From NCBI RefSeq assembly GCF_037969725.1, contig NZ_CP150203.1:1814001-1878000 (forward strand): 64,000 nucleotides of DNA, given 5' to 3'. The translations under genes were made by a program, and so were the position numbers. Source of the DNA: Paenibacillus sp. FSL W8-0426 (GTDB lineage: Bacteria; Bacillota; Bacilli; Paenibacillales; Paenibacillaceae). This document shows, in pieces, positions 18,946 to 30,164 of this stretch. A model generated the notes under the pieces. The model saw only the letters and a program-made list of their open reading frames with translations. It ran no database searches and had not been told where the DNA came from. Position 1 is the stretch's first letter. Each line of letters starts with the position of its first letter.

Positions 18946-19980
18946 ATGAAAGAACGTTTGGAGGCATTAAAGATCGAAGCGCTGGATCAATTGTCCAGTG
19001 TTAACGATCCGCAGACGCTTGGTGATCTGCGCGTAAAGTATTTGGGTAAAAAGGGCGCGTTGACCGAGATTTTGCGCGGTATGGGCGCGCTGAGCGCGGA
19101 GGAGCGCCCGGTCATCGGCCAAGTGGCCAACGACGTTCGCGGCGCCATCGAAGCCGTGATCGAGAGCAAACAGGAGCAGTTCACGAAAGAAGAGACCGCA
19201 AAACGTCTCCAATCCGAAACGATCGACGTTACATTGCCTGGCCGCCGTGGGCGTCAAGGGGGATTGCACCCGCTAACCAAGGTGGTGCAGGAAATCGAAG
19301 ATATTTTCATCGGTATGGGTTACCGCGTAGCGGAAGGTCCGGAAGTCGAAACCGATTATTTCAACTTCGAGGCATTGAATCTGCCTAAAAACCACCCGGC
19401 CCGCGACATGCAGGATTCGTTCTATGTCACTGAAGAACTGCTGATGCGTACCCATACTTCTCCGGTTCAGGTTCGCTCCATGCAAGCGATGCAGGGTGAA
19501 GTGCCGCTGAAGGTCATCTGCCCAGGCAAAGTGTACCGTCGCGATGATGACGATGCAACGCACTCGTTCCAGTTCAACCAGATTGAAGGCATCGTGATCG
19601 GCGAAAACATTCGCATGAGCGATCTGAAAGGCACATTGCTGCAATTCGTACGCGAAATGTTCGGGCCTCATACGGAGATTCGCCTTCGTCCAAGCTTCTT
19701 CCCGTTCACCGAGCCAAGCGCTGAAGTGGATGTCACTTGCGTGCAATGCGGAGGCAGCGGCTGCCGGATGTGTAAACAAACAGGCTGGCTTGAAATTCTC
19801 GGTTGCGGCATGGTTCATCCTAAAGTGCTTGAAATGGGCGGTTACGACCCGGAAAAATACAGCGGTTTTGCCTTCGGCATGGGCGTTGAGCGTATTGCCA
19901 TTCTGAAGTACGGCATCGACGATATTCGTCATTTCTACAACAGCGACCTGGCATTCCTTAAGCAGTTCGGGCGGTTGTAA
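18946..19980 (+). CDS. pheS: Phenylalanine-tRNA ligase alpha subunit
   Basis: Catalytic alpha chain of the alpha2-beta2 PheRS that charges tRNA-Phe. 344 residues: N-terminal coiled-coil tRNA-binding arm (1-90), then the class II core with motif 1 around [19 protein letters not shown], motif 2 [21 protein letters not shown] (key residues R, D, H, F) and motif 3 [19 protein letters not shown] CxxCxxxxCxxC-like segment ([19 protein letters not shown]) is as in other bacterial PheS. The ATG follows GAGGGGG. Controlled by the upstream T-box and cotranscribed with pheT. Confidence 0.98.
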
Positions 19981-20078: not shown

Positions 20079-22532
20079 ATGCGAGTATCGACGGATTGGC
20101 TGTCTGATTATATTTCCCTGGAAGGCGTGGCGCCACAGGAGCTGGCGGAGAAAATCACCCGTTCCGGCATCGAGATTGACGTGGTGGAGAACCGCAACCA
20201 AGGCGTGAACAAGGTTGTTGTAGGTTATGTGAAAAGCAAGGAAAAACATCCGGATGCCGACAAACTGAACGTTTGCATCGTGGATGCTGGGCAGGAAGAG
20301 GATTTGCAGATCGTCTGCGGCGCGAAAAACGTGGATGCAGGCCAAAAAATCGCGGTTGCCCTTGTGGGTGCCAAATTGCCTGGCGGGCTGGACATCAAAA
20401 AAGCCAAGCTGCGCGGCGTTGTATCCATGGGCATGATCTGTTCGGCGAAAGAATTGGGTATGAACGACAAATTGCTGCCGAAGGAACAACAGGAAGGCAT
20501 TCTGGTGCTGCCTGAAAATACCGAAATCGGAACGCCGATTGCCCAGGTTCTCGGTCTGGACGATCATGTCCTGGAACTGGACCTGACGCCGAACCGTTCG
20601 GATTGCCTCAGCATGCTGGGTGCGGCTTACGAAGTCGGTGCCATCCTGGGACGCGACGTGAAGCTGCCTGATCCGCAGCAGCATCTGGTGGAGATTTCGG
20701 ATGCGGCGGCAAACCACATTTCGGTGCAAATTTCGGCTGCGGAGCAGTGTGCTCACTATGCAGCTCGTTATGTTACGGGCATCAAATTGGGAGCGTCCCC
20801 CCTCTGGATGCAAAATCGCCTGATGGCAGCGGGCATTCGCCCGATCAACAACGTCGTCGACGTAACCAACTATGTCATGCTGGAATACGGTCAGCCGCTG
20901 CACGCATTTGATGCGGATAAATTGGAAAAAGGGCACATTGATGTGCGTATGGCGCAGGAAGGCGAAACCATCGTGACGCTGGATGGCCAAGAGCGCAAAC
21001 TGGAGCCGCATATGCTCTTGATTACGGATGGCGTGAAACCTGTGGCGATCGCCGGGGTCATGGGCGGCGAGAATTCCGAGGTTGCGGAAGGCACTGTCAA
21101 TCTGTTGCTTGAATCTGCCAAGTTCGATGGCGGAACTGTACGGAAAACGTCGCGCCAACTGGGGCTGCGTTCCGAAGCGAGCCTGCGTTTTGAGAAGGAA
21201 GTGGATCCTGGAGCAGTCATTGCTGCATTGAATCGGGCTGCGGAATTGATCCAACGTTATGCGGGCGGCGAAGTTCATCAGGGGATCGTTCAGGCAGGAA
21301 CGGAATCCGCAGAGAAACGCGTCGTGAAATTGTCGCTGGACAAACTCAACCGTTATCTTGGAACAGATCTGTCGCTGCTTGAGGTTAAAACGATCTTCGC
21401 CCGTCTGCACTTCGCCTGCGGCGATGCCGAACAAGGCATCCTGGACGTGGAAGTTCCGACGCGCAGAGGGGATATCACACTGGATGTGGACTTGTTCGAA
21501 GAAGTAGCACGCCTGTACGGGTACGACAACATTCCGACTACGCCGATCGAAGGGCCTACGACGCCTGGGGCATACACGCGCGCTCAAGCAATGCGCCGCA
21601 CGATCCGCGGTTTGCTTGCAAACAGCGGCTGGCAGGAAATGATCAGCTACTCCTTCGTACATCCGGATAAGGCATCCTTGTTCCCGTCCCTGACGGCAGG
21701 CAGCAAAACGGTAAAATTGGCCATGCCGATGAGCGAAGACCGCAGCGTGCTCCGTACAAGCGTACTTCCGCAAATGCTGGATGCCGCGGTGTATAACATG
21801 AATCGGAAACAGGACTCCCTGGCGGTATTCGAAGTGGGCAGCGTGTTCTTCACGGAAGAGGAGCAGTTGACCAAACAACCGCATGAAATTCCGGTTTTGA
21901 GCATGCTGCTTACGGGCCATCGTGCTCCTCAACAATGGAATGCCGGTGCGGAAAAAGTCGATTTCTTCGATTTGAAGGGGGCTTTGGAGGAACTGTTTGC
22001 TTATCTGGGTCTGGAGAGCCGTATTCGTTTCGTGGCCAACCAGCCGGAAGGATACCATCCGGGACGTTCCGCATCCGTATATTTGAGCGATCTGCATGGC
22101 GGCGAGGATAAGCTGATCGGAACGATGGGCCAATTGCATCCGGAACTGCAATTGCAGTATGATCTTAATGATGTGTATTTGGCAGAGATCGGTCTTGAAG
22201 CGATTTACAGCGATGCGGATGCGGATATCCGTTACCGCGAGCTTCCGCGTTTCCCTGCGGTTGAACGGGATATTGCGGTCGTTGTCGGCAAAGACGTCGA
22301 AGCGGGAGCCATGCTCCATGCCATTCGTGAAGCAGCTGGGGAATTGATGCAAACCGTACAGGTATTCGATGTGTTCACCGGAAGCAAATTGGGAGACGAC
22401 AAGAAGAGCGTAGCAATGGCTCTCGTGTACCGTCATCGCGAGCGCACGCTGACCGATGAGGAAATTACCGAGGTTCATTCCCGCGTCGTTTCGCGCCTGG
22501 AAGAACAGTTCGGCGCGGAGCTGCGCAAATAG
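20079..22532 (+). CDS. pheT: Phenylalanine-tRNA ligase beta subunit
   Basis: Beta chain of PheRS, 817 residues, full length. Domains: EMAP/OB-type tRNA-binding domain (about 40-155, KEKHPDADKLNVCIVDAG), B3/B4 editing domain (about 210-390, with LEYGQPLHAFDADKL), B5 domain (about 405-480), catalytic-like core and the C-terminal ferredoxin-fold anticodon-binding domain (FPAVERDIAVVVGKDVEAGAM). It starts with ATG after AAGGAAGTG about 100 bases after pheS, so the two are probably one transcript. Confidence 0.98.
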   Translation: MRVSTDWLSDYISLEGVAPQELAEKITRSGIEIDVVENRNQGVNKVVVGYVKSKEKHPDADKLNVCIVDAGQEEDLQIVCGAKNVDAGQKIAVALVGAKLPGGLDIKKAKLRGVVSMGMICSAKELGMNDKLLPKEQQEGILVLPENTEIGTPIAQVLGLDDHVLELDLTPNRSDCLSMLGAAYEVGAILGRDVKLPDPQQHLVEISDAAANHISVQISAAEQCAHYAARYVTGIKLGASPLWMQNRLMAAGIRPINNVVDVTNYVMLEYGQPLHAFDADKLEKGHIDVRMAQEGETIVTLDGQERKLEPHMLLITDGVKPVAIAGVMGGENSEVAEGTVNLLLESAKFDGGTVRKTSRQLGLRSEASLRFEKEVDPGAVIAALNRAAELIQRYAGGEVHQGIVQAGTESAEKRVVKLSLDKLNRYLGTDLSLLEVKTIFARLHFACGDAEQGILDVEVPTRRGDITLDVDLFEEVARLYGYDNIPTTPIEGPTTPGAYTRAQAMRRTIRGLLANSGWQEMISYSFVHPDKASLFPSLTAGSKTVKLAMPMSEDRSVLRTSVLPQMLDAAVYNMNRKQDSLAVFEVGSVFFTEEEQLTKQPHEIPVLSMLLTGHRAPQQWNAGAEKVDFFDLKGALEELFAYLGLESRIRFVANQPEGYHPGRSASVYLSDLHGGEDKLIGTMGQLHPELQLQYDLNDVYLAEIGLEAIYSDADADIRYRELPRFPAVERDIAVVVGKDVEAGAMLHAIREAAGELMQTVQVFDVFTGSKLGDDKKSVAMALVYRHRERTLTDEEITEVHSRVVSRLEEQFGAELRK

Positions 22533-22801: not shown

Positions 22802-22850
22802 AAAGTCACATCGAATCCTTAGCATTAGAGGATTGATGTGACTTTTTTTT
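22802..22850 (+). terminator. Strong terminator between pheT and zapA
   Basis: AAAGTCACATC pairs with GATGTGACTTT, extended past one bulged G by AATCCT/AGGATT; a T8 tail follows. It lies just 30 bases before the zapA ribosome binding site. A possible promoter, TTCCTT-N18-TATTAT at about 22748-22777, precedes it, so it might attenuate zapA as well as end pheST. The rest of 22533-22800 shows only an ATATCAG/CTGATAT inverted repeat. Confidence 0.85.
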
Positions 22851-22896
22851 GCTGACAGCCAAGAATCAACATACAGACTTGAAGGAGGGCACAACT

Positions 22897-25800
22897 GTGA
22901 CTACACCTGATCGTACTCGCGTCACCGTAGAGATATACGGGACTTCTTATAAATTGGTCGGCAGCAGTGCCGAATACATGAAACAAGTGGCCAGCTTGGT
23001 GGATGAACGAATGAATACCATCTCCAAAAACCACTCCCGCTTGGACACGCCGCGCATCGCGGTCCTCGCGGCTGTACATATGGCCGAGCAGTCGCTCCAG
23101 GCTCAGGAGATCCGGAATGAGCTGAAGATGTTGACCGGCGAACGGACGGAATTGAGAAACGAGCTTAATCGCTTGAACGCGATTCAGAGTGAACACCGCA
23201 AGGAACTGGAACAGCGTGATCAGGCCATTGCGGAAGCCATCAAACAAAAGCAGGAAGCCGAGCAGGCCCAAGCCAAAATGGCGGCGGACAACAAGGCGGA
23301 GATTGCACGATTGAATGCGATGTTGGAGCAGGAAAGGACCCGGTTTGCTGAACGCGAGAAATCGATGCAGGCCCAGCATGCTGCCCAACTTAAGCAAGAG
23401 GCCGAGAAGCAGCAGGCAAGGTTGAGGGAAGCAGAAGCGAAAGCAGCCAATCAGCTAAAAGAAGCGCAAGCTCAAGCAGCGGCGCAGCAAAAGGAAATGC
23501 AGAGCCGTGCTGCCGCAGAACTTCAACAGGCTCAAGCGAAGGCGGCGGAGCAGCTGAAGGCAGCGAAGGAGCAGCAGGCGCAGGCGGAAGCACGTCTGAA
23601 AGAAGCGGAAGCTCGCGCAGCGTCGGAGCGCCAGCAGCTTGAAGCGAAAACGGCGGAGCAGCTGAAGGCAGCGAAGGAGCAGCAGGCGCAGGTGGAAGCG
23701 CGCCTGAAAGAAGCGGAAGCTCGCGCAGCTGCGGAGCGCCAGCAGCTTGAAGCGAAAGCGGCGGAGCAGCTGAAGGCAGCGAAGGAGCAGCAGGCGCAGG
23801 CGGAAGCACGCCTGAAAGAAGCGGAAGCTCGCGCAGCGTCGGAGCGCCAGCAGCTTGAAGCGAAAGCGGCGGAGCAGCTGAAGGCAGCGAAGGAGCAGCA
23901 GGCGCAGGCGGAAGCGCGCCTGAAAGAAGCGGAAGCTCGCGCAGCCGCGGAACGCCAGCAGCTTGAAGCGAAGGCGGCGGAGCAGCTGAAGGCAGCGAAG
24001 GAGCAGCAGGCGCAGGCGGAAGCGCGCCTGAAAGAAGCGGAAGCTCGCGCAGCCGCGGAACGCCAGCAGCTTGAAGCGAAGGCGGCGGAGCAGCTGAAGG
24101 CAGCGAAAGAACAAGCAGAGGCTGCTATACTAGCCGAACTGGAGCAGGCCGAAGCAGAGCTGAACAAGGTGCAGTCGGAAGCGGCCAAACAGGTCGAAGA
24201 GCTGCAAGCCACCATGGAACGGCGTTTGCAGCAGGCTGAAGAAGAGAAGGCCCGACAAATTGGTGAGCTCAAGGAGAAGGCCGATAAAGAACGTGCAATC
24301 ATTCAGCTTGAAGCAGAACAAAATCTTCAGAACGAAATCGGTCGGGTTACGGTTGAATTCCGTGAAGCCAAGGAGCAGTCGGAACTCGAATGGATGGAAA
24401 AAGAGGTTGCCTTTGAGGCGAAGCTGGAGGCTGAAGCGAAACAAAAGAATGAACTGGCGGCAGCAGCGGCTGCCTTGGAAAAAGAACAAAGCAAGTTAAA
24501 ACAGCAGTTGGAAGAGGAGAGACAGGAGGCAGAGGAGCTGCTGCGCGACGTCGAAGCTCAGCTTGGCGCCGTTCGTGAGCAGCTTGCGAGCACGCAGCAG
24601 CTGGTCACGGAGCAGGAAGAGAAAATTGCGCAGGAACTGGAACAGCTTCAGTTGTTGCAGGAAGAAAAGGCCGCGCGCATTCAGGAGAAAGAAATCCAAA
24701 CGCGGCGAATCGCCGAACTGGAGCAGCAGCTGAACGAGCTGAAGCAAGATAGCGCGCGCCTGCAGGAAAAATTGCGTACAGCCGAAGCGGAAACAAGCCA
24801 ATCCCGGGAAGCCGAACAGCAATGGAAGCAGCAGTATAATGAAGTCGTCGAGCGGGAATCTGCCTTGTCCGCGCAGCTTCGCAAAGCACAGGATCATCAG
24901 GCGCGGCTGGATGACGAGGTTCTGCGCTTGCAGGCAGCGGCATCGAGATCCGAGGAAGAGCAGCGCGGTCTGCAAAAGGTGCTGGAACAGGCTCATGCAG
25001 CCGTGCGTACGCTTCAGAACGAAATCGGCATGCTGACCAAGAGCGAGCAATCGTGGAAAGAGCTTGCCGAGCAGCGGCTTGCGGAGATCGGCGAATTGGA
25101 AACGCAAGTCCTGGAGGCCGTGGAACAGAACGAAACGCTTGAAGCCGGGGTGCAGTCCCTTCACGATGAATTGTCCGTCATCAAGGAAGAGGCGGATTCC
25201 TTCCGTAAAGAGGCCAACCGTTACAAGCAGGATTTTGCCCGCATCAATGATGAACATCAGCGACTCGCAGCAGAGCTGCACGACGTAACGGACGAACTGC
25301 ATTCGCTGCAGGAAAGCTACAAGCAAATTCGCAGCGATTACGACGATGCATTGCAGCGCGAAGAGATCGGCGCGAGGGAATTGGAAAGACTGCAAGCCGA
25401 GAATCGCTCCATCAAGCAGTCGCTTGTAGAAGCAAACGATCAGGTAAAGATGCTGTCCGAACAAGTGGGCGAACAAGCAGCACAAATTTCGCAGACGGAA
25501 GAAGAAGCATTGGAGTGGCAAATCAAATACGAAGATTTGACGGCCAAACATGCCGAGCTTTCCGCACGGGTCGAACAACTGACTGCGCGTGAAGAGCAAA
25601 TGCAGCAGAAGCTTGACGAGGCTTCAAGGAACGACCAGGTTTGGCAGCGACGTGCAGACGAATGGGCGGTGCAGGAGCAGGCTTGGCAAGAACGTTGGAC
25701 TGCGCTGGAGAACGAATTGAACATGTGGCAGCAGGAAAGTGCGGTCAGCGTCGAAAAGGTAGAACAGCTGGAGAAAGAATGCAAGCAGCTGGAGCAGCTG

Positions 25801-26037
25801 CATGCAGGTGCGGTTGAAGAAAAGCAATCGATGGAAACGGAACTTCACGATATCGGCGAACGATTCGAGCTCGCAGCCAATCAATTGCGTCTGCTGCAGG
25901 TGGAGCGCGAAATAGAGCGTGAGAAAGCCGAGCAATTGAACACCGAATATCGGCAGCTGCAGGACGAGTATGCGAAACTCCAAACCGAATACAACGAGTG
26001 GATCGAACTCATCGAGCAGGACCAAAGTCAGCAATAA
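22897..26037 (+). CDS. zapA: ZapA-domain protein fused to a giant coiled-coil
   Basis: The first 90 residues are a ZapA domain, which binds FtsZ and stabilises the division ring (VTVEIYGTSYKLVGS, YMKQVASLVDERM, RIAVLAAVHMAEQ). In most bacteria ZapA ends there; here the chain continues to 1046 residues, almost all alpha-helical, rich in Glu, Gln, Ala, Lys and Arg, with no predicted globular or membrane segment. Five 36-residue tandem repeats lie at about residues 215-395. The GTG start at 22897 follows GGAGGGCACAACT; an upstream ATG in frame at 22849 lies over the terminator. Position after pheST and before mutS2 matches zapA in Bacillus. The frame is open and codon use even, so it is not a sequencing artefact joining two genes. 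Confidence 0.85.
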   Translation: MTTPDRTRVTVEIYGTSYKLVGSSAEYMKQVASLVDERMNTISKNHSRLDTPRIAVLAAVHMAEQSLQAQEIRNELKMLTGERTELRNELNRLNAIQSEHRKELEQRDQAIAEAIKQKQEAEQAQAKMAADNKAEIARLNAMLEQERTRFAEREKSMQAQHAAQLKQEAEKQQARLREAEAKAANQLKEAQAQAAAQQKEMQSRAAAELQQAQAKAAEQLKAAKEQQAQAEARLKEAEARAASERQQLEAKTAEQLKAAKEQQAQVEARLKEAEARAAAERQQLEAKAAEQLKAAKEQQAQAEARLKEAEARAASERQQLEAKAAEQLKAAKEQQAQAEARLKEAEARAAAERQQLEAKAAEQLKAAKEQQAQAEARLKEAEARAAAERQQLEAKAAEQLKAAKEQAEAAILAELEQAEAELNKVQSEAAKQVEELQATMERRLQQAEEEKARQIGELKEKADKERAIIQLEAEQNLQNEIGRVTVEFREAKEQSELEWMEKEVAFEAKLEAEAKQKNELAAAAAALEKEQSKLKQQLEEERQEAEELLRDVEAQLGAVREQLASTQQLVTEQEEKIAQELEQLQLLQEEKAARIQEKEIQTRRIAELEQQLNELKQDSARLQEKLRTAEAETSQSREAEQQWKQQYNEVVERESALSAQLRKAQDHQARLDDEVLRLQAAASRSEEEQRGLQKVLEQAHAAVRTLQNEIGMLTKSEQSWKELAEQRLAEIGELETQVLEAVEQNETLEAGVQSLHDELSVIKEEADSFRKEANRYKQDFARINDEHQRLAAELHDVTDELHSLQESYKQIRSDYDDALQREEIGARELERLQAENRSIKQSLVEANDQVKMLSEQVGEQAAQISQTEEEALEWQIKYEDLTAKHAELSARVEQLTAREEQMQQKLDEASRNDQVWQRRADEWAVQEQAWQERWTALENELNMWQQESAVSVEKVEQLEKECKQLEQLHAGAVEEKQSMETELHDIGERFELAANQLRLLQVEREIEREKAEQLNTEYRQLQDEYAKLQTEYNEWIELIEQDQSQQ
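23539..24120 (+). repeat. 108-bp in-frame tandem repeats in the zapA fusion
   Basis: Units at 23539-23646, 23647-23754, 23755-23862, 23863-23970 and 23971-24078 plus a partial sixth. Each encodes a 36-residue unit beginning KAAEQLKAAKEQQAQ and ending RQQLEA. Differences between units are few (Ala/Thr, Ala/Val, Ser/Ala and silent changes), pointing to recent duplication and likely copy-number variation between strains. 36 residues equal ten turns of a straight alpha helix. Confidence 0.95.
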
Positions 26038-26143: not shown

Positions 26144-26521
26144 TTATTCCTCAACGATGATTTTGGAGATCATTCTGCTGTGACCGCTTCCGCACCATAC
26201 GGAGCAGGACACCTGAAATTCTCCGGCCTTATCGGGAGTAATCACTTTTGTGTTTTTCTGGGAATCGAGCGACAGGTTTAGCTCTGGCACGAGAATGCCA
26301 TGGTTTCCTTGCACATTCTCATACACGATTTTGACCGGGACGCCTTTTTTGATACGGTATTCCGGCTGATCGAATTCATAATTGCTCGCTTTGATGACAA
26401 GCTCTTCGCTTGCGGTCACGTTCGCTTCGGACTCGGCGCTGTCGCTGGAGCCTGTCCCGCCACAGGCGGTGAGCATGAGTGCCAGCATGCAGATCGCTAG
26501 CCATGCGATTCCTTTTTTCAT
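26144..26521 (-). CDS. Cupredoxin lipoprotein with CuA-type ligands
   Basis: Exported copper protein of 125 residues. The signal peptide ends in a lipobox (MLALMLTACGG), so it should be lipid-anchored on the outer face of the membrane. The mature domain has the cytochrome c oxidase subunit II fold, with NHGI supplying the first His and CSVWCGSGHSRM supplying Cys-x3-Cys-x3-His-x2-Met, the full CuA set. It lacks the transmembrane helices of a real oxidase subunit. It may be an electron carrier or a copper-handling protein. Of two adjacent ATGs the second is better spaced from AAAGGAGG. Confidence 0.85.
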   Translation of the reverse strand: MKKGIAWLAICMLALMLTACGGTGSSDSAESEANVTASEELVIKASNYEFDQPEYRIKKGVPVKIVYENVQGNHGILVPELNLSLDSQKNTKVITPDKAGEFQVSCSVWCGSGHSRMISKIIVEE

Positions 26522-26746
26522 CATGTGCCTCCTTTAGCCTGTTGAAATAGATGGAATTTGAATGATTTCCTCAAATCATCATACCTCATTCCATGAGAAC
26601 ATGACCATGCCGGCTTTGTCATCTTTTTGAAAAATGCAAAGCGCAAAAACCTCTTCAGGCGGAAAGCCTTCGGAGGTTTATTGGACAAGCCTTTTCAGTT
26701 GTCGAGACGTGAATCAAAGTCCCTCGAGATTAGACCGATATTTCGG

Positions 26747-27112
26747 TTACGAATTGTTTTTGGAACTTCGACCGGCTTCAAACGGCGTGGATACCGGGAT
26801 AAAGAGGTCGATGATGCCGATCACCAGAGCCGCCAGAATGGCTCCGAGCAAAGTGACTCTTACATGATCGACCACATACTGGCCAAGCCAGATGACCAGG
26901 GCACTGACGATGAAACCTACGATGCCTCGGCCAAACGGAGTAACCCGTTTGCCAAATACGCCTTCAATGATCCAACCAAGCAAGGCGATGACCAAGGCCA
27001 GCATCAATGCGCTCCAGAATCCGCCAACGGCAAATCCCGGCACAATCCAGCTGACTACCATCAACACGATCGCGGCAATGACGAATCGTACGACATGTCC
27101 CAGGAAATTCAT
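26747..27112 (-). CDS. YvlD-like phage-holin-superfamily membrane protein
   Basis: 121 residues with four hydrophobic helices (VVRFVIAAIVLMVVSWIVPG, ALMLALVIALLGWIIEGVFG, IVGFIVSALVIWLG, AILAALVIGIIDLFIPV). The family is named for phage holin IV but is chromosomal and widespread in Firmicutes; its role is unclear, often tied to envelope stress. The start is placed at the ATG preceded by AAAAGGAGGTAAACCGT; a longer frame has no site. Monocistronic. Confidence 0.75.
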   Translation of the reverse strand: MNFLGHVVRFVIAAIVLMVVSWIVPGFAVGGFWSALMLALVIALLGWIIEGVFGKRVTPFGRGIVGFIVSALVIWLGQYVVDHVRVTLLGAILAALVIGIIDLFIPVSTPFEAGRSSKNNS

Positions 27113-27306
27113 ACGGTTTACCTCCTTTTCATCAGATCGGATATGCATGGGACATCCAGTTCACAATGTTAATGTAGATGTTGCAATATCCTGACACCCG
27201 TAGTTTGTGGCGGAATGCTGCAACTTATGTGTGGAAGGATTCGTTAAATAGCGCAGCTACGATTCATTCGTTATAATACAGATATAGCTTGGAAGGAGTT
27301 GTACAC

Positions 27307-29673
27307 TTGGACACGAAAATTTTGCACACATTAGAATACCGGAAAATTTTAAATACATTGCAGGGCTTTGCCCAAACCTCCATGGGGAAACGCAAAGCCG
27401 AACAGTTGGAGCCGGTGAGTGAGCTGGAGGAAGTAAAACGGCTGCTTCAACAAACCGATGAGGCAGCGACCTACGATCGCCTGAAAGGAATGCCTTCTTT
27501 TGGCGGTATCGTGGATATCACGGCATCCGTTAAACGTGCGGAAATCGGCGGTACCCTCAATCCGCATGAATTGCTGGGCATTTCCAATACAACCCTAGCG
27601 GCCCGCAGGCTGAAACGGCAAATTGCGGCTCTGCATGAGGATGAGCCATTGGAAACACTGGTTTTTATCAGCGACCAGCTCTCGGAGCAAAAAGCGTTGG
27701 AGGATTCCATTCGCAGCTGCATCGATGACAGTGCCGAAGTCGCCGACACGGCGAGCGTGACGCTGGCTCAGATTCGTCGGGAACTGCGGGGCGGGGAAGC
27801 GCGCATCAGGGAGAAGCTGGATTCGATGATCCGTTCCTCTACGGTGTCGAAGATGCTTCAGGATCAGTTGATTACGATTCGGGGCGACCGCTTCGTGATC
27901 CCGGTCAAAGCGGAGTATCGCTCTTACTTTGGCGGGATCGTGCATGACCAATCGGGTTCGGGGGCAACCCTTTTTATCGAGCCGGAATCCATCGTAGCCA
28001 TGAACAACAAGCTGCGGGAGACGCGAATTCGCGAGGAACGGGAAATAGAAGTCATTCTGCAAAAATTGACGGCGTTAGTCAGCGAGCAGGCCGAATGGCT
28101 GTTGTACGATGTCGATTTGCTCGGTTCGCTCGACTTCATATTTGCCAAGGCGCGCTTGGCGCGTGAATTAAAGGCAACGCTTCCGCGCATGAATGACCGC
28201 GGGTTCATCAAGTTGAAAAAAGGCCGGCATCCGCTCATTGCCATCGAAAATGTAGTGCCTACCGACGTTGAACTCGGAAACGATTATACGTCGATCATCG
28301 TCACAGGACCGAATACGGGCGGTAAGACGGTTACCCTCAAAACGATCGGATTGTTGAGCCTGATGGCCATGTCCGGATTGTTCGTTCCCGCTGAAGATGG
28401 CAGCCAGCTCTGCGTATTCGATGCCATTTATGCGGATATCGGCGACGAACAAAGCATTGAGCAAAATCTCAGTACGTTTTCCAGCCATATGACCAACATT
28501 ATTCGGATTTTGAAAAACATGACCCCGAAAAGCCTGATCCTGCTTGATGAGCTTGGTGCGGGAACCGACCCGGCCGAAGGCTCGGCTTTGGCTATATCCA
28601 TTCTGGAACACATGCATAGCTCCGGCTGTCGCATGGTTGCGACGACGCACTATAGCGAATTGAAGGCCTATGCGTATGAGCGGAAAGGCGTGATCAATGC
28701 AAGCATGGAGTTTGACGTAAACACGTTAAGCCCAACCTATCGTCTGCTTGTTGGTGTGCCGGGCCGCAGTAACGCGTTTGCCATTGCGGAGCGTCTGGGA
28801 CTGCCCGGCCACATTCTCGACTATGCACGCGGCGAAGTGAAAGAAGAGGATCAGCGGGTTGAGCATATGATCGCTTCTTTGGAAGAGAACAGACTTACCG
28901 CCGAGCAGGAGCGCGAACGCGCCGAGCAGCTGCGTCAGGACATGGAGAAGCTGCGCAGCCGTTACCAGTCCGATCTGGAAAAACTGGAGCAGCAGCGTGA
29001 TCGTCGAATTGAGAAAGCCGAGGAAGAAGCGAGAAGCATTATCGACAAAGCCAGAGCGGATGCGGAAAAAATCATTGCCGATTTGCGTCAGTTGGCCATG
29101 GAAGAGGGAGCTTCCGTCAAAGAACACAAACTTATCGCGGCACGCAAACAGCTGGATGAGGCAGAGCCCGAAAAACGCAAAAAAGCGGTCAAACGCACAG
29201 GCTCCGTTCCGAAGACCCGTGCGATCGGCCCGGGGGATGAAGTTCTTGTGTACAGCCTGAACCAAAAAGGGCATGTGGTTGAACTGGCGGGAAGCAAGGA
29301 AGCCTTCGTGCAGCTCGGCATTATGAAAATGAAGGTCTCTTTGGACGATCTGGAATTGCAGCAGTCCGCTCCGGCGGTGAAGCCTAAGCAGAAACCGGTA
29401 ACGGGCGTGAAGCGCACGCGCGATGACAATGTCCGCAGCGAGTTGGATCTGCGTGGGGCCAATTTGGAAGAGGCGTTAATGGAAACGGACCGTTTCATTG
29501 ATGAAGCCTTTCTGGCTAACTTAGGCCAAATTTACATTATTCATGGTAAAGGGACCGGTATTTTGCGTTCGGGTATTCAAGAATATCTGCGCAAGCATAG
29601 ACATATTAAAAGCTACCGGTTAGGCAATTACGGAGAAGGCGGTAATGGTGTGACCGTAGCAGAGTTGGAATAA
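27307..29673 (+). CDS. mutS2: Endonuclease MutS2
   Basis: MutS paralogue without the mismatch-recognition domain, acting on recombination intermediates and, in Bacillus, on collided ribosomes. 788 residues: core/lever helices (1-280), ATPase with GPNTGGKTVTLKTIG, DELGAGTDPAEGSALA and ATTHYSELK, a long coiled coil (510-640) and a C-terminal Smr nuclease domain (LDLRGANLEEAL, IIHGKGTGILR). The TTG start at 27307 follows GGAAGGAGTTGTACAC. Head of an operon that probably includes the next small genes. Confidence 0.96.
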   Translation: MDTKILHTLEYRKILNTLQGFAQTSMGKRKAEQLEPVSELEEVKRLLQQTDEAATYDRLKGMPSFGGIVDITASVKRAEIGGTLNPHELLGISNTTLAARRLKRQIAALHEDEPLETLVFISDQLSEQKALEDSIRSCIDDSAEVADTASVTLAQIRRELRGGEARIREKLDSMIRSSTVSKMLQDQLITIRGDRFVIPVKAEYRSYFGGIVHDQSGSGATLFIEPESIVAMNNKLRETRIREEREIEVILQKLTALVSEQAEWLLYDVDLLGSLDFIFAKARLARELKATLPRMNDRGFIKLKKGRHPLIAIENVVPTDVELGNDYTSIIVTGPNTGGKTVTLKTIGLLSLMAMSGLFVPAEDGSQLCVFDAIYADIGDEQSIEQNLSTFSSHMTNIIRILKNMTPKSLILLDELGAGTDPAEGSALAISILEHMHSSGCRMVATTHYSELKAYAYERKGVINASMEFDVNTLSPTYRLLVGVPGRSNAFAIAERLGLPGHILDYARGEVKEEDQRVEHMIASLEENRLTAEQERERAEQLRQDMEKLRSRYQSDLEKLEQQRDRRIEKAEEEARSIIDKARADAEKIIADLRQLAMEEGASVKEHKLIAARKQLDEAEPEKRKKAVKRTGSVPKTRAIGPGDEVLVYSLNQKGHVVELAGSKEAFVQLGIMKMKVSLDDLELQQSAPAVKPKQKPVTGVKRTRDDNVRSELDLRGANLEEALMETDRFIDEAFLANLGQIYIIHGKGTGILRSGIQEYLRKHRHIKSYRLGNYGEGGNGVTVAELE

Positions 29674-29744: not shown

Positions 29745-30164
29745 GTGAAGGGGACGATTGACCAGCTGCTGTCCCATCCGCTAGGGATGGTTCTCGGTTT
29801 TTTCTCGGTTGCGATTATGGAGTTGCTTGTTTTTCTGGCTTGTTTCGAGTTGGTCACGAAATACAAATGCTGGGATGAAATCAGAAAGGGCAACGTGGCG
29901 GTAGCTATGGCTACGGGTGGCAAAATTTTTGGCATTTGCAATGTGCTTCGTTTCTGCATCCAGGCCAAATCTTCCGTGTATGAAGCGATGATCTGGTCGT
30001 TTGTAGGTTTTATTTTGCTGCTGATCGCCTATTTTCTATTTGAGTTTTTGACGCCGGTCTTCTCCATTGACAAAGAGATCGCGGCGGATAATCGGGCCGT
30101 TGGATTGATTTCCATGATTATTTCGGTCGCGCTGTCTTTTGTCATCGGCGCAAGCATCATGTAA
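29745..30164 (+). CDS. DUF350 membrane protein
   Basis: 139 residues, four transmembrane helices (about 14-34, 50-66, 79-98, 118-138), matching the DUF350 family of small inner-membrane proteins of unknown role. Starts at GTG after AAGGAGAGCGATGA. It lies 71 bases after mutS2 and 11 bases before a 26-codon gene, so likely the same transcript. Confidence 0.8.
   Translation: MKGTIDQLLSHPLGMVLGFFSVAIMELLVFLACFELVTKYKCWDEIRKGNVAVAMATGGKIFGICNVLRFCIQAKSSVYEAMIWSFVGFILLLIAYFLFEFLTPVFSIDKEIAADNRAVGLISMIISVALSFVIGASIM

Follow-up and report, generated by a model that had tools for sequence, protein, structure and literature searches.

Long ZapA proteins of the Paenibacillaceae appear to carry an internally expanded C-terminal helix with both ends conserved

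ZapA cross-links FtsZ by means of a short stalk and has been studied extensively. As described in PMC12216130 and PMC12754632, its heads grip the N-terminal tail of FtsZ and the subunit junction, the tetramer is bundled by four C-terminal helices, and Phe4 has been put forward as the Gram-positive equivalent of the key residue in FtsZ. A ZapA I83E dimer fails to complement, according to PMC7246612. The present analysis concerns a zapA gene of Paenibacillus sp. FSL W8-0426 located in the window, i.e. the whole analysed stretch of 64,000 nucleotides, and encoding a protein of 1046 residues, which exceeds the customary (not defining) ZapA size of about 80-110 residues. To judge from the sequence, the coil has grown within ZapA's own C-terminal helix and both ends are conserved, because the final residues correspond to those that close ordinary Bacilli ZapA. 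The gene comprises the following features.

22882..22888, forward strand: ribosome-binding site AAGGAGG, read from the sequence, with an 8-base gap to the GTG
22897..26037, forward strand: long zapA, 1046 amino acids, GTG start; open frame with Pfam ZapA above the cut-off
22897..23091, forward strand: ZapA head, residues 1-65, beta-beta-alpha, after which the long helix begins; from profile match, predicted fold and conservation
23092..25962, forward strand: predicted helical spacer, residues 66-1022, differing in length among species; proline-free over residues 76-1021
23534..24107, forward strand: tandem array of 5.3 copies of a 108-bp (36-residue) unit, found by Tandem Repeats Finder (TRF) with 96% matches
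25840..25926, forward strand: sub-tip stretch ELHDIGERFELAANQLRLLQVEREIEREK, residues 982-1010, its conservation confined to the genus in a comparison with other genera and families
25963..26019, forward strand: conserved tip DEYAKLQTEYNEWIELIEQ, residues 1023-1041, which corresponds to the C-terminus of short Bacilli ZapA

A single open frame spans positions 22849-26037 of the forward strand, and translation from the GTG at 22897 gives the 1046 residues. Pfam ZapA (PF05164) was matched on residues 9-94 with E 3.7e-10 and 40.4 bits (cut-off 23.8). In a whole-genome profile search the zapA match scored 59.1 bits and no second ZapA match was found. The predicted fold, a beta-beta-alpha head followed by a long C-terminal helix, is that of ZapA, and the protein is a ZapA as far as sequence and predicted fold can tell. 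The NCBIfam equivalog NF010724 (PRK14126 ZapA) was reached with 55.9 of the required 80 bits; database entries label such long proteins 'cell division protein ZapA'. When the whole protein was used to search a protein collection, coil words dominated (8000 candidates, 5 matches); the head alone gave 9 matches. The head (residues 1-90) showed ratios of nonsynonymous to synonymous change (dN/dS) of 0-0.09 in 16 pairs with usable dS. The first-pass annotation had described an intact ZapA head and some 950 helical residues in one open frame, and the frame, the Pfam match and the 946-residue proline-free run agree with it.

The same annotation had spoken of ZapA fused to a coil, and here the C-terminal end of the protein led to a different description. 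The profile of the short-ZapA end placed its best match at the C-terminus in 123 of the 127 proteins scanned, which are 123-1740 residues long, residues 1-74 being excluded from the scan. Uniform placing would give 4.2 such matches in 127, and column-shuffled profiles gave a mean of 11.7; since one of 200 shuffles reached 109, the gap in bit score (median 19.7 for the best and 2.3 for the second-best match) is stronger evidence than the placing. The tip in the window scored 27.1 bits. At the head-proximal position the median score was -15.8, and the tip scored higher in 107 of 113 proteins, 14 of the 127 having no recognisable anchor. Some short members retain the stretch on the head side too, in an ancestral-looking form (13.7 bits in L093; 9.7 bits in L092, exceeding the 2.5 bits of its own tip). 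The last 20 or so residues follow the consensus EYxKLQxEYNEWIxLIE. The motif [YFH][NDT][ED]W[ILVMF] lies no more than 30 residues from the C-terminus in 115 of 121 proteins and upstream of the last 40 residues in none of the 121; of the six proteins without it, five are incomplete or early-ended sequences and the other, from family f42, has 123 residues. The tip was found in 79 of the 80 named loci, and the remaining one (L304) has runs of N. Short ZapA of other orders ends like ...ADEYFRLKEEYDELLKLIEK (L085), in register with ...DEYAKLQTEYNEWIELIEQ, and the 1046-residue protein thus ends as short Bacilli ZapA does. Fusion of a coil to the C-terminus of ZapA was rejected, since the end of the protein matches the end of short ZapA, and internal expansion, through an insertion or repeated internal duplication, takes its place. 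Two alignments combined the window with 29 and with 26 of the 80 named loci. Where applicable, L124 (early end), L186, L191 and L193 (runs of N), L224 (contig end) and, among the extra loci, L101 (open) were left out of the tip, array and periodicity sets and of one of the two indel sets, and L304 was excluded from the head-proximal tip comparison and the named-set indels.

The long ZapA is general in the Paenibacillaceae and in part of the order, and is not peculiar to the source genome. Short zapA genes in close relatives had been named in the first-pass annotation as an observation that would overturn it; all 75 genus genomes proved to have one ZapA match each, in open frames of 369-1066 codons. 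The lowest of these frames (G005, locus L124) ends at 358 residues, in mid-coil and with the tip absent, through either an assembly error or a real truncation. In the family, 293 of 295 genomes matched by profile, and the lengths given for 150 rows all fall between 275 and 1616 codons; of the two non-matchers, G144 has a 535-codon frame found with a protein query, which raises the total to 294 of 295, and G322 is an 85%-complete genome. The order added 41 genomes of ten other families with 129-1746 codons, several of these families being short. In the class outside the order 116 of 121 genomes matched with main frames of 74-258 codons, and one extra partial match below the cut-off belonged to a frame of 1456 codons. 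Elsewhere in the phylum, where 118 of 135 genomes matched, frames measured 59-354 codons apart from two of 666 (G502 and G618, of another class), which are open upstream of the head and have a normal C-terminal end. The named loci with long ZapA include P. polymyxa, P. amylolyticus, P. illinoisensis and Fontibacillus, and their natural length variants include proteins of 513, 784, 833, 1029 and 1251 residues. Smaller, separate coil growth was seen in two genomes of other Bacilli orders, L246 (G363) with 258 codons and L247 (G395) with 219; the end of L246 again resembles the short-ZapA tip, and the coil of L247 is a run of RRERDEL-like heptads.

The expanded part changes in whole units. In the window, repeat units 1-5 differ pairwise at 0-6 positions per 108 bases and the sixth unit at 52-56, in line with the five nearly identical 36-residue repeats noted in the first reading. 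That the block might be an assembly error, the other refuting observation named there, was rejected because a separate assembly assigned to the same species (G010, probably Paenibacillus sp. JJ-223, L250) carries the same block in 4.3 copies, its protein of 1010 residues being shorter by one 36-residue unit. TRF arrays with a score of at least 50 were found in 68 of 116 genes and are built of many different units. Paenibacillus sp. DMB5, sp. PastM-3 and P. typhae stand near each other in PheT (end branches of 0.004-0.007 changes per column) and have ZapA of 784, 833 and 1029 residues, that is, steps of one and then four lengths of 49 residues; TRF found the 49-residue unit in 2.1 copies in PastM-3 and 6.3 in P. 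typhae. On the PheT tree the binned ZapA lengths require 11 changes. Indel sizes were multiples of 7 or 11 in 44 of 57 events (12.6 expected) and in 32 of 45 events (9.9 expected), two sets that share species and are not independent, with large gaps dependent on the alignment and events deduplicated by length and position only. In the named set the first 80 residues had no indels, and 27 of 57 events kept the phase of a helix with 3.6 residues per turn (null 28%), a weaker test than the 7/11 count because many named-set events are 49-residue units of 3.5 coil. Repeat slippage could itself favour sizes of 7 and 11, and the indel sizes are therefore not proof of selection. The proposal that repeat number sets the length of the rod is supported, the changes being in-frame whole units (36 residues within the species, 49 and 4 x 49 between sister species).

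The hydrophobic periodicity of the spacer is 3.60 in residues 213-405 and 3.50 in residues 521-1022. The former value agrees with the earlier remark that the 36 residues of the repeat make ten turns of a helix. A rigid single helix, also suggested then, fits at most the block of period 3.6, and residues 521-1022 show the classical heptad period of 3.5. The mean local period falls from 3.60 in the first third of the coil to 3.54 in its last third, where it is lower in 93 of 107 related proteins; in the same 107 proteins the periodicity profile correlated with its mirror image at a mean of -0.26, and positively in about 20%. The coil probably forms a parallel dimer, because its periodicity is polar and anti-mirrored. 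Should all 957 spacer residues be coiled coil, a rod of about 142 nm is expected (0.1485 nm per residue), and on that condition the earlier estimate of over 100 nm holds. A full-length AlphaFold2 model was weak (mean predicted local distance difference test score 70.4, predicted template modelling score 0.25) and helical, with gaps at 217-241, 491-524, 683-690 and 844-857, and leaves room for hairpins or kinks. The coil dN/dS was 0-0.22 (16 values from 8 pairs with usable dS, 17 pairs run).

A scheme to which we give a probability of about 0.45 would make the protein a stretched dumbbell, in which parallel dimers are joined at the retained tips into a long-range FtsZ cross-linker. The head would bind FtsZ as other ZapAs do, as fold and conservation suggest; the FtsZ of the source genome probably carries Phe4, its start having been assigned by analogy. 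Two chains would lie side by side in the same direction, forming a coiled coil about 140 nm long, in keeping with the polar and mostly phase-keeping coil. The last 20 or so residues, formerly beside the head, may represent the old ZapA tetramerisation helix, and the tips would pair antiparallel, tip to tip, with a second dimer. The outcome would be a ZapA dumbbell with a long handle cross-linking FtsZ to FtsZ, whose reach would follow the repeat copy number, and in an order without a clear EzrA it could take a larger share of holding the Z-ring. Bridging of the ring to nucleoid, membrane or wall, proposed in the first-pass annotation, is possible; joining of FtsZ to FtsZ by way of the kept tip is no less likely. 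The further idea of a length-tunable bipolar cross-linker, two parallel rods whose tips are joined and whose heads lie as much as about 280 nm apart, with a span reset by repeat copy number over strain and species divergence, acting as a gauge of ring width or of the spacing of filaments, we consider doubtful.

Several observations weigh against the dumbbell scheme. The usual Z-ring width is about 100 nm, and the tip-to-tip span of about 280 nm could exceed it. The scheme is weakest at the tip, where 91 variants show a nearly invariant N and W. Neither occurs at its position in 29 short tips of other orders, other Bacilli having mostly D/E in place of the N and L in place of the W, and the two residues could also mean a new partner. 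In four of the 127 proteins (L175, L207, L208 and L215) the best profile match lies elsewhere than at the tip. In some members of family f46 of the order (L092, L102, L110 and L194) a Pro/Gly- or Ala-rich, probably flexible stretch separates the coil from the kept tip, so a rigid handle is not needed everywhere. Several families with short ZapA, some of them in the same order, likewise have no EzrA or a weak one, and G363, of another order, combines a grown coil (258 codons) with full-length EzrA; the absence of EzrA therefore does not explain coil growth.

The main rival, possible and on the unlikely side, is a one-ended tether with the head on FtsZ and the tip docked about 140 nm away on another protein (a membrane anchor, a nucleoid factor or a wall-synthesis factor). 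The W and N peculiar to the long tips speak for it, as does retention of the tip even after Pro/Gly-rich stretches, and a precedent exists in the ZapA-ZapB-MatP link of E. coli (PMC7246612); against this, the tip is in register with the short-ZapA end, where the C-terminal helices form the ZapA bundle, no partner of the tip is known, and the genome has no second copy of the exact YNEWI-coding pattern. An antiparallel bundle, in which two dimers overlap along the whole rod with heads about 140 nm apart and tips beside the opposite heads, would keep the topology of short ZapA and account for conserved ends at any length. In Kp/Ec ZapA crystals the C-terminal tail fills the site of the FtsZ N-terminal tail, as stated in PMC12216130. 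The polar, anti-mirrored periodicity described above disfavours such full overlap, which is very improbable.

Neutral growth, by which codon-repeat slippage lengthened a tolerant helix and left a length without function, would fit the arrays of many different units, the length jumps among close species and a repeat grain of 7 and 11 residues that favours slips of that size. Against it stand the low coil dN/dS, the near absence of proline, the retained tip, the lack of any short ZapA in the 75 genus rows and in the 150 family rows with a given length, and a clear early end in only one frame (G005) of 75, and it is held to be quite improbable. Replacement of EzrA, with the long ZapA as a cytosolic scaffold doing the job of the membrane-anchored EzrA in Bacillus, is unlikely. 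It is favoured by PMC6126333, according to which loss of zapA blocks division of B. subtilis once ezrA is absent, and by the distribution of the EzrA profile (PF06160): no match was found in the source genome at E 0.001 nor among the Pfam matches of the 1046-residue protein at E 0.01, and in the order it matched in 23 of 60 genomes, 7 above the cut-off and 71.9 bits at best, whereas in the class sample 53 of 131 genomes gave E < 1e-100. A diverged EzrA may nevertheless be present in the order, since in G450 positions 3-553 of the 557 of the profile were matched at 49.7 bits, and both the short-ZapA families with no or weak EzrA and G363 argue against replacement. Loss of EzrA as the driver of coil growth is insufficient and was rejected; it is background, not cause.

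The surroundings of the gene in the window are as follows.

18946..19980, forward strand: pheS, upstream; tblastn match in 79 of 80 named loci
20079..22532, forward strand: pheT, upstream; tblastn match 90-852 bases before zapA in 80 of 80 named loci
26144-26524, reverse strand: weak cupredoxin-like open reading frame, below the Pfam cut-off, between zapA and mutS2
26747-27148, reverse strand: PF04020 (phage-holin superfamily IV) membrane protein, between zapA and mutS2
27289..29673, forward strand: mutS2, downstream; tblastn match downstream in 70 of 80 named loci

The position between pheST and mutS2, noted in the first reading, was confirmed, and B. subtilis zapA presumably likewise lies near pheT and mutS2. 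The open reading frame at 26627-27172 (forward strand), opposite the PF04020 gene, looks spurious. A DUF350 membrane protein gene (29745-30164, forward strand) adjoins mutS2; it had a tblastn match in 14 of the 80 named loci, possibly an undercount owing to contig ends and flank limits.

No account of the long ZapA was found in an open-licence library of 5.39 million papers, judged by titles and abstract openings. In this family ZapA is longer by a factor of several to about twenty and keeps both ends, and sister strains provide natural length variants, which make the relation of cross-linker length to Z-ring structure directly testable. If true, a bipolar cross-linker would measure out filament spacing or ring width across an entire bacterial family. 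Among known systems, SMC and Rad50 coils resemble the spacer in coiled-coil composition (SMC_prok_B, TIGR02168, E 4.4e-13 in the coil region only); the SMC score was 47.9 bits against a cut-off of 567, and the Pfam scan of the long ZapA found no ATPase head. Kinesin-5 and other bipolar filament cross-linkers have two filament-binding ends, a long coil and a central assembly module; they are alike only in the way the proposed topology would work, the long ZapA being unrelated and without a motor. EzrA, spectrin-like according to PMC6126333, is a long helical FtsZ partner in Bacilli, like the long ZapA, which differs in starting with a ZapA head, not a membrane anchor, and in having no EzrA match. 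The closest relatives are the known ZapA proteins (PF05164; G. stearothermophilus 2mmv, P. aeruginosa 1w2e/1t3u, E. coli 4p1m, K. pneumoniae 9isj/9isk), alike in head sequence and fold, and short Bacilli ZapA, whose C-terminal end matches; to these the long ZapA adds about 957 coil residues between head and end, in a length that varies by repeat units. It is a family-wide remodelling of ZapA in which the ends are kept and the distance between them is free.
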